40,284 nt of DNA from an uncultured Lentisphaerota bacterium (GTDB lineage Bacteria > Verrucomicrobiota > Kiritimatiellia > CAIQIC01 > JAGNIJ01). How positions within the stretch are numbered: the first letter of the stretch is position 1; the number at the start of each line of letters is the position of its first letter. Location of the stretch: the NCBI GenBank assembly GCA_937870865.1, contig CALMZY010000133.1:1-40284 (forward strand), written 5' to 3'. The notes beneath the pieces were generated by a model. That model saw only the letters and a list, made by a program, of their open reading frames with translations. It was not told where the DNA came from and searched no databases. The translations under genes were made by a program, and so were the position numbers. Positions 2,061 to 17,063 of the stretch are shown here, one piece after another.

Positions 2061-3560
<1,500 letters not shown>

Positions 3561-13937: not shown

Positions 13938-14483
13938 ATGATGTCTTCGTTGCTAGCGTTTCTGCACCACATCCTCACGAACCTCGGATTCGTGCTGGTC
14001 TGGGTGATGTGTCTCGTGGGCCTCCTTCTCTCGTGTCTGTCCATTTCGGGGACATGGCTGGTGGTCGGCGCGACCCTGCTTTCGATGCTGCTCGTCGGTT
14101 CGGGCTTTCCGGGATTCGGAACGGTTCTCCTGATGATCTGGGTCGCGATCTGCGTCGAGGTGGTCGAGTACGTCGCCGGCGTGTGGGGCGTCAAAAACCG
14201 CGGCGGTTCGAACTGGGCGGGCTTGGCGGCTCTGGTCGGGGGCGTGGCCGGGTTGATCCTTGGCACGGCGATTCCGGTGCCGGTCCTTGGCAGTCTGCTG
14301 GGGATGACCGCCGGCAGTTTCGGTTTTGTGTACGGCGTCGAGCGTTACCGCTTGAAACGGGCCTCGCCGGCCGTCCATATTGCCCTCGGCGCGGTGGTCG
14401 CGCGGTTCTTCGTGGTGCTCTTGAAGGTCGGCGTCACGCTCGGGATGATGGCATGGCTCGCAATCGGCTTGGCGGCAAAATGA
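13938..14483 (+). CDS. DUF456 family membrane protein
   Basis: Multi-TM, glycine-rich pattern (AALVGGVAGLILGTAIPVPVLGSLLGMTAGSFGFVYGVERYRL) typical of DUF456; ATG at 13938 or 13941. Confidence 0.82.
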   Translation: MMSSLLAFLHHILTNLGFVLVWVMCLVGLLLSCLSISGTWLVVGATLLSMLLVGSGFPGFGTVLLMIWVAICVEVVEYVAGVWGVKNRGGSNWAGLAALVGGVAGLILGTAIPVPVLGSLLGMTAGSFGFVYGVERYRLKRASPAVHIALGAVVARFFVVLLKVGVTLGMMAWLAIGLAAK

Positions 14484-16390
14484 GCGGCGCGTTTTTTCCA
14501 AGCCTTGGAAAAAAATCTGTTGTTGTTTCCAAGGCTTGGAAAATCCTTCTCGCAAGCTCCCTCCTCGCGATGACCGCGCCGGCCGAAAATCTCCGTCCGA
14601 TCCTCGGGACCCACGAGCAGGCGCGCCTGGAAGATGCGCTGCGCGGCATGGAGATGACCGGGGTGGATCTGGGTTTCGGAAAGGACTACGGCAAGCCGCA
14701 GGTCGTTCTCCAGCGCGCGCGCCGGCTTCTCTCGGAACCGCTCGGACTGCCGGCGATGGCGGACGAGATCCTTGCGACGTTCCAGCCGAATTGCCCGCCC
14801 GCCGTCTGGCTGGAGTCCGCCAGCCTGCTCGAGGTGAAACTGACCGAGCCGGCGGCCGCGCCGCCTGCGGGCGCAAGTTCCCTGACCAACGGCCTCGCCT
14901 CCTTCCTGTCGGGAGCGCGCCGGGCCGAACAACGGCTGACGCAGGCCTTTGGCTCCCTGACCGGCGACGAGAAGCGGTACGTCGCGGCGGCTTTCTTCGC
15001 GGGGACGTTCAACGCGGAGGACAAGGCCGACGTGCGGGTTGACCTTCTCTCCGTCGGGGTGTCGACGTCCGAAATCCAGCGGGCGATCATGGAGAGCCTG
15101 GACATCGATCCCGGGCCGGCGTCGTCGAACTTTCTCGCCGTTCTGGGGAAAGTGGACATCGCGGCGCTGCTGGACGCGGGGCGCGTATTTCAGCAAGCGG
15201 TGTATGAAGCGCGCGAGGCCGCGAAGTCCGTTCACGATTGGCCTGAGAAACCCACGCGCGTCGATTCGATCCTGTTCGGCACGCGGGGCGACGATGTGTA
15301 CACGAACGCGGAACTGCTGATCCTGGATCCGGGCGGAGACGACACCTACTGCGGGGACGCGGGAAGCGCGAACGGTTTGCAGGGCAGGCTGCTCGCCGCG
15401 ATCGTGGACCTTGCGGGCAACGACCGCTACATAGGCGATCGGGTGTTGGGGCCCGGCTCCGCCGTGTTTGGCGCGGCGGTGTTGCTGGACGGTGCGGGCG
15501 ACGACCTGTACCGCGCGAAATACACCGGCCAGGCGTCCGCGTTTTTCGGCGCGAGCTGGCTGGAGGACCTGACGGGAAGCGATGTCTATCGCGCGCAGGC
15601 GCACTCGCAGGCCGCCGGGTACGCGGGGTTCGGATATCTGCGTGACGGCGCCGGCAACGATGTGTACGACGTCGGGTTCGCGGGTCAGGCGTACGCGGGG
15701 GTCATGGGCGTGGGCGTCCTGGTGGATGAGGCGGGGAATGACCGCTATCTCGCGGGCGGGGTCGAGCACGACTACGAGCGCAACGACGACCGGTACGTTT
15801 CGATGGCGCAGGGACTGGCGATCGGCATGCGGCCGTACGCGGGCGGCGGTGTCGCCGCATTGATCGATCTCGAAGGCAACGACACGTACACGGCCGACGT
15901 GTTCGGGCAGGGGGTCAGCTACTGGTATTCCGTCGGCATGCTGCTGGATGTCGCGGGCGACGACACGTACTCGATGTACCAATACGGGCAGGGTTCCGGC
16001 ATCCATCTCAGCTCCGGCCTTCTGGCCGACGGCGGCGGCAAGGATGTTTACACCGGCGGCGTGCTGGTGCAGGGCAACGCACACGATTACGGGGTCGGGA
16101 TGCTGTTCGAGCAGGGCGGGGACGACACGTACACCGCGAACCAGCACGCGCAGGGCCGGGCGATCAACAACGCGCTCGGGATTCTCGTGGATTCCGCCGG
16201 CGACGACTCCTATTTCGGGCGGCAGACCGATGAGTGCCAGGGCATCGGCAACGACGCGGGCGAGCGCGAGTACGGGAGCCTGGCGGTGCTGATGGACCTG
16301 GCGGGCAGGGACGTCTACTCCTGCGGCGCGACGAACGGGTGCCGGATGACGAGGCCGGATTTCGGGATTATTTATGACGATCAGCCCTGA
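14480..16390 (+). CDS. Secreted protein with about 13 GxDxY motifs in a ~27-residue tandem repeat
   Basis: ATGA overlap with the DUF456 gene; repeats GDDTYCGD...GNDRYIGD...GDDLYRAK...GSDVYRAQ...GNDVYDVG...GNDTYTAD...GDDTYSMY...GKDVYTGG...GDDTYTAN...GDDSYFGR. Confidence 0.88.
   Translation: MSGAFFPSLGKKSVVVSKAWKILLASSLLAMTAPAENLRPILGTHEQARLEDALRGMEMTGVDLGFGKDYGKPQVVLQRARRLLSEPLGLPAMADEILATFQPNCPPAVWLESASLLEVKLTEPAAAPPAGASSLTNGLASFLSGARRAEQRLTQAFGSLTGDEKRYVAAAFFAGTFNAEDKADVRVDLLSVGVSTSEIQRAIMESLDIDPGPASSNFLAVLGKVDIAALLDAGRVFQQAVYEAREAAKSVHDWPEKPTRVDSILFGTRGDDVYTNAELLILDPGGDDTYCGDAGSANGLQGRLLAAIVDLAGNDRYIGDRVLGPGSAVFGAAVLLDGAGDDLYRAKYTGQASAFFGASWLEDLTGSDVYRAQAHSQAAGYAGFGYLRDGAGNDVYDVGFAGQAYAGVMGVGVLVDEAGNDRYLAGGVEHDYERNDDRYVSMAQGLAIGMRPYAGGGVAALIDLEGNDTYTADVFGQGVSYWYSVGMLLDVAGDDTYSMYQYGQGSGIHLSSGLLADGGGKDVYTGGVLVQGNAHDYGVGMLFEQGGDDTYTANQHAQGRAINNALGILVDSAGDDSYFGRQTDECQGIGNDAGEREYGSLAVLMDLAGRDVYSCGATNGCRMTRPDFGIIYDDQP
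14492..14543. repeat. Paired hairpins TTTTTTCCAAGCCTTGGAAAAAAA and TTTCCAAGGCTTGGAAA
   Basis: Direct reading; each half is near-palindromic, and the CCAAGCCTTGG and CCAAGGCTTGG cores are exact reverse complements of each other. Lies inside the 5' end of the GDDTY-repeat CDS. Confidence 0.85.
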
Positions 16391-17063
16391 TTTTGTTGCC
16401 GCAAAGAGGCGCAAGAGGACACAAGGGAGGAATGTTTCCCTGTGTGTCTTCTTGAGCCTCTTTGCGGCCAACGTTTTTTCCGGAGGGCCGCCGTCCGACG
16501 ACGAGTTGATCTTCAACCTTCAGCGTTACGGCAACACGCCGGAGAAGCGCGAGGCCAAGGCGCGCTCGCGCGAGATCCTAGTCCGGCGCGGCCCCGACGC
16601 CCTGCGCCTCCTGATGGGGCGGGTCCACCTGGAGAACGTGATGATCTCGGTTGAGGCGGAGAATATGGTGCGGACGATGGACACGCAGGAGGTCGCGTCG
16701 GTCCTCTCCGGGTTCCTCGCCGACGCGCATCCCCGGACGCGCAAGCTGGCGGCGTACTGGCTGGGTTTTCACGACACGCCGGAGTACGCGGCCCGGGTTT
16801 ACCCTCTTCTGGAAGACGACGAAACGGCTGGGGCGGCGATTCGCACGCTGGGCAAGTGGCGGGACCGTGACGCGATCCCGAAGATCGTCCCGTTCCTTTC
16901 GCACGAGAAGGAAGTCCGGCGGATCGCGGCGGTCAACGCCTTGCGCGACATCGGCGACGCGTCCGCGATCCCGGAACTGGAGCCTCTGCTCGACGACCGC
17001 TATTTCACCGTTCGCAAAGCGGCGGAACGCGCCCTCGCGAAACTCCGCGAGTCACGGCCGTAA
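16374..17063 (+). CDS. HEAT-repeat domain protein, probably exported
   Basis: [88 protein letters not shown] is HEAT/PBS-like. The start (ATG 16374) overlaps the upstream stop and is uncertain. Confidence 0.8.
16395..16472. repeat. 78-bp imperfect inverted repeat of GCAAAGAGG type
   Basis: Left arm 16395-16427 GTTGCCGCAAAGAGGCGCAAGAGGACACAAGGG; right arm 16438-16472 CCCTGTGTGTCTTCTTGAGCCTCTTTGCGGCCAAC. Confidence 0.88.

Follow-up and report, generated by a model that had tools for sequence, protein, structure and literature searches.

Introduction

Can a short inverted repeat (IR) at the beginning of a gene be read as the signal peptide of the gene product, and how would it have come to lie there? 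This question is raised by the gene of a HEAT-repeat protein in the window, i.e. the whole stretch of 40,284 nucleotides of DNA analysed here, where an IR is located at the junction with the upstream gene of a GDDTY-repeat protein (Table 1). The original prediction held that the IR, read in frame, forms the predicted signal peptide of the HEAT protein.

Results

The IR is read in frame and very probably as a predicted signal peptide

A mechanical IR search identified two arms of 26 nt each that are 92% complementary and separated by a gap of 19 nt. If one bulged base is allowed, the IR extends to GTTG (16394) and CAAC and comprises ~79 bp. RNA folding of region 16374-16490 yields -65.9 kcal/mol as compared to -35.0 +/- 3.5 kcal/mol for shuffled sequences (z = -8.9; 0 of 200 shuffles as good), and a run of six T is found 3' of the extended stem. 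As the stop codon of the GDDTY-repeat gene is TGA 16388-16390, the IR begins 4 nt later, as the original prediction had stated, and the two peptides it quoted are indeed obtained on translation from ATG 16374: in this frame the IR encodes a basic stretch of 11 residues followed by a hydrophobic stretch of 17 residues, with the VFS residues of the latter encoded just outside the IR arm.

Table 1 Features at the GDDTY/HEAT junction
Feature	Position in the window	Strand	Basis
Upstream GDDTY-repeat gene, own start with ATGA overlap and signal peptide	14480..16390	+	
TTTCCAANNNTTGGAAA palindrome pair, spacing 31 bp, within the n-region of the GDDTY gene and in frame	14495..14542	.	
Gene of the HEAT-repeat protein (229 aa), start ATG overlapping the end of the GDDTY gene	16374..17063	+	ORF, Pfam HEAT_2, orthologues
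Predicted n-region, 19 residues, basic part from the left arm	16374..16430	+	Translation, rule-based export signal
Inverted repeat, dispersed GCAAAG-type element, including GTTG/CAAC ends	16394..16473	.	
Left arm, purine-rich	16398..16423	.	IR search
Predicted h-region and c-region, 17 residues, mostly from loop and right arm	16431..16481	+	Translation, rule-based export signal
Right arm, pyrimidine-rich	16443..16468	.	IR search

The ORF starting with ATG 16374 matches Pfam HEAT_2 with an E-value of 5.8e-20. Starts were evaluated with an export-signal rule and a codon-usage gene caller that were both custom-written for this analysis, i.e. the scores are not SignalP scores. According to the rule, ATG 16374 is the only start that provides a signal peptide, CTG16440 and TTG16452 giving none. 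The N-termini of the HEAT proteins from the window's own genome (G000) and from its sister genome G002 exhibit a basic n-region, an uncharged hydrophobic core and small residues before the cleavage site, as expected for a Sec signal peptide, and both are scored SPI by the rule. The codon usage of the IR is poor and atypical for G000, and the gene caller picked TTG16452 as start. Since no later start gives a signal peptide, the orthologues have their signal peptides in the same place, and frame and length are kept in G002 (see below), the predicted signal peptide of the HEAT protein very probably results from translation of the IR, the export function of this N-terminus being itself a prediction from sequence.

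Probable replacement of an older signal peptide by the IR

The HEAT protein is present in 25 genomes, including G000, and a query against named organisms gave no match. In most of the 25 genomes the HEAT gene follows the GDDTY gene, with stop and start codons overlapping or nearly adjacent, and the protein has an ordinary signal peptide ahead of its mature part; in G043, G055 and G128 a single long frame spans GDDTY and HEAT. Among the 24 other genomes only G002 has a comparable IR at the HEAT start. It belongs to the same family, is read in the same frame and has the same length of 24 codons (MAAKRHKEAQRGARLICAFLCLFSAEFAFA), its hairpin being more decayed than that of G000. Correspondingly, the hairpin-scan score at the HEAT junction is 20 for G000, 14 for G002 and at most 8 for all others save two at 11. 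An intrinsic terminator, i.e. a stem directly followed by a T run that is conserved in a relative, was not recognised at the junction, as the six T of the window are absent from G002, and a terminator scan of the window returned the inner stem only, without a good tail.

The original prediction had named the comparison of HEAT orthologues with and without the IR as a check, and this comparison supports the reading of the IR as signal peptide: G001 and G003, which belong to G000's own family, lack the hairpin and carry an ordinary signal peptide at this position, and G002 keeps the frame. As the IR-less orthologues already carry predicted signal peptides, the IR would have replaced an older one, and the suggestion, also part of the original prediction, that a mobile hairpin may create export signals de novo was rejected; in other genes, too, the IR mostly adds an n-region only (see below).

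In the HEAT protein tree G000 is paired with G002 (96/93) and G001 with G003 (100/99), so that one gain of the IR is the simplest history, and we infer that this gain preceded the split of G000 and G002. Independent insertions in the two genomes could also have occurred, as n-regions are repeat targets. Identity between G000 and G002 is 68% in the IR codons and 66% in the mature part (mature dS ~1.1; 63% amino acid identity of the mature protein), i.e. the IR codons are about as diverged as the mature part, which argues for an old, retained IR. The outer arms (16398-16468, compared to L036) are paired at 24/26 positions in G000, better than expected at its dS of ~1.1 from G002; selection on the hairpin or its pairing, template-switch correction or re-insertion, i.e. 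a second insertion, could be the reason.

The IR belongs to a dispersed family with a basic-to-hydrophobic polarity

Class-wide, IR copies with both arms are found in 39 of 346 genomes, and a second scan revealed 11 IR loci, among them loci in Pontiella sulfatireligans and Kiritimatiellales MAGs. Pattern searches and ~0.2 Mb of contigs, which made up the copy test for the own genome, yielded further, mostly degraded family members in G000. In five own-genome copies the element ends with GTTGGCCGCAA, and only the left arm at the HEAT gene is without one G. Through this one-base difference ATG 16374 is followed by the IR and the HEAT domain in one reading frame, and the missing G may reflect a deletion after insertion. 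Two features of Rickettsia palindromic elements (RPEs) are thus found here, namely a palindrome dispersed at many genomic places and in-frame insertion as compared to IR-less orthologues (HEAT in G000/G002 vs G001/G003; 4Fe-4S series, see below), and the element is probably mobile.

The original prediction that an IR with a purine-rich first arm generally encodes a basic and then a hydrophobic stretch holds for the family. Reading 68 related IRs in all six frames (408 frames) gave 237 open frames, 208 of which run from basic to more hydrophobic, as compared to 44 +/- 8 for dinucleotide shuffles and 0 with the halves swapped. In 53 of the 237, i.e. about one fifth, the IR alone would provide n-region and h-region (shuffles 7.9 +/- 2.3). 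The orientation of the IR is irrelevant as it is roughly its own reverse complement.

IR-read N-termini occur in further exported or membrane proteins

Based on the genes called around the 68 IRs with the custom codon-usage caller most IRs are intergenic. Nevertheless, five families besides HEAT have an IR as N-terminus and no convincing later start, i.e. a 4Fe-4S membrane protein (L209, L096), a PQQ-type propeller (L106), a 3D-domain lipoprotein (L092), an exported protein without Pfam match (L091) and an N-terminally membrane-anchored protein (L205). The 1.6 Mb covered of genome G150 contain L091 itself, an orthologue of L092 and, additionally, a second lipoprotein and LolA, where a different hairpin, AACCACGGAACAC, encodes most of MFKPRNTQNTRKRKSLIIPCILCIPWF. 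A stringent hairpin scan over the 1.6 Mb of G150 detected only 7 IR-family members; a fuzzy motif scan gave 16 matches vs 2-5 in controls at a threshold of 11, and at a threshold of 10 the control count equalled the real count.

Thus, the search for the IR family at 5' ends of coding sequences, which the original prediction had proposed, gave at least seven further families of the class with IR-read N-termini, and 7/7 are predicted to be exported or membrane proteins. As 26-42% of genes are scored exported, depending on the rule, the chance of this outcome is ~0.0001-0.002, for a small set in which we judged the start choices ourselves and in which four open frames with a native ATG downstream (L094, L202, G150 865727 and G150 299271) were left uncounted as, in our judgement, intergenic. 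In most non-HEAT cases the IR gives the n-region only, with the native h-region and cleavage site persisting behind it.

GCAAAG-type IRs are also found in frame within proteins (L108, L185, L098, L093 and L188; hybrid histidine kinase, radical SAM type, PQQ propeller), where they apparently sit in linkers or loops.

Different hairpins are found in the n-regions of orthologues

For the 4Fe-4S protein we compared 13 close and 17 more distant orthologues. Among the close ones, the GCAAAG element is located in the n-region of five, two of which have a second, ACCACGGAG-type hairpin inside; other n-regions carry a GGAGCTTCCAGCTCC hairpin (1/13), a CCGCCTTTAGGCGG hairpin (3/13) or a TTTCCGAT tandem (2/13), and no recognised element is present in two. 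The native h-region and the mature start EFRFPMPEF persist across this set. Several orthologues start at an ATG that the element itself forms at its edge (ATGACCGC or ATGGCCGC). Just one hairpin was found among the 17 distant orthologues. For LolA, each of three species has a different hairpin family, and no hairpin is present in a fourth species. In one distant 4Fe-4S orthologue, L357, the signal-peptide region is spanned by a separate inverted repeat of 19 nt that is unrelated to the others.

Discussion

Based on these findings we consider it probable that a GCAAAG-type palindrome landed at the packed GDDTY/HEAT junction and took over as predicted signal peptide, and that n-regions at packed operon junctions are among the places where hairpins can land in frame. 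The short dispersed element would have been inserted between GDDTY and HEAT in the common ancestor of G000 and its sister genus. As its first arm is rich in purines whichever strand is read, read-through would have yielded a basic and then a hydrophobic stretch, which may have taken over as Sec signal peptide while the older one was lost, the IR being kept since as coding sequence. At packed operon junctions the n-region of a signal peptide may thus be one place for in-frame landing, and hairpins may sometimes bring start codon, n-region and h-region together. The wider notion, that in this class unrelated hairpins continually land in the n-regions at coupled operon junctions, with signal peptides repeatedly remade from mobile palindromes, has in our view an even chance of being correct.

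Hairpins might instead hit numerous gene junctions, surviving in frame only where the n-region of a signal peptide absorbs the extra residues, so that the IR would give nothing useful. The persistence of native h-region and cleavage site behind most IRs fits this explanation, as do the IRs in apparent linkers or loops of L108, L188, L098 and L093. It is nevertheless rather unlikely, as the HEAT proteins of G000 and G002 have no remaining native h-region, i.e. the IR has to supply it, and as in LolA of G150 an IR supplies most of the h-region. A role of the hairpin as intercistronic RNA element in attenuation, stability or translational coupling, the signal-peptide reading being a by-product, would agree with the very stable fold, the well-paired outer arms (24/26) and the T run of G000, but we regard it as improbable, given the missing T run and the more decayed hairpin of G002, the lack of a hairpin at this junction in other orthologues and the conservation of reading frame and length. 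Least probable of all is a start downstream of the untranslated IR and a HEAT protein that is not exported, since, in spite of the coding score favouring TTG16452 and the atypical IR codons, the orthologues are predicted to be exported, later starts leave no signal peptide and G002 keeps the frame despite large divergence.

The proposed takeover of the HEAT signal peptide by a GCAAAG-type element has a close parallel. In Yersinia YPO1552 the MITE-type repeat RU-2/YPAL accounts for the first 30 of the 41 residues of a predicted signal peptide (Delihas 2007, PMC2759123; review PMC2229807), and signal sequences of their own are predicted for YPO1552-like proteins of other genera (PMC2759123). As in the HEAT gene, a small repeat supplies predicted signal-peptide sequence and relatives have their own. 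However, RU-2 is a case of one locus with a 168-bp repeat unit; the Kiritimatiellia repeat is shorter and, as far as examined, unrelated, the HEAT IR extends over both n-region and h-region, and the pattern is seen repeatedly and for several hairpin families. RPEs are described as in-frame elements in protein genes, with matching sites also in orthologues (Ogata et al. 2000, cited in PMC2229807 and PMC3767692), of 100-150 bp and located in solvent-exposed protein parts (PMC2229807, PMC3767692). By this description the elements studied here resemble RPEs as dispersed palindromes in frame in coding genes, but they are shorter, occur in Kiritimatiellia-type genomes and include N-terminal cases in exported proteins. 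Inverted repeats of up to 284 bp within coding sequence are also reported for nematomorph genes (PMC6649704); these are mitochondrial, and the abstract of that work does not connect them with signal peptides. In the literature searched we found nothing on palindromes in Kiritimatiellales. As far as this literature shows, the kind of event is thus already known, and what is added here is the recurrence with several hairpin families, the probable takeover of a whole signal peptide and the polarity statistic. Since both orientations of a symmetric purine/pyrimidine hairpin encode a basic and then a hydrophobic stretch, a gene can acquire an export tag when such a hairpin is inserted at its start, a concrete route for signal-peptide turnover. 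Automatic gene calling will misplace the starts of IR-started genes.

Other palindromes in the window

The n-region palindrome of the GDDTY gene (Table 1) is distinct from the GCAAAG type and present in all four genomes of the family. TTTCCAANNNTTGGAAA occurs in 33-210 copies per genome in G000, G001, G002, G003 and G005 (0 matches for the reversed control). In the sample from the own genome neighbouring copies are exactly 31 bp apart in 9/9 cases, and the majority of the clusters lie facing the start of a gene. The pattern resembles a putative phased binding site or repeat array more than a random palindrome. A third inverted repeat, of AGTCCAAAGTCCAAGG type and with 42-nt arms, is located at 1956-2055, between genes called at 1451-1951 and 2061-3560.
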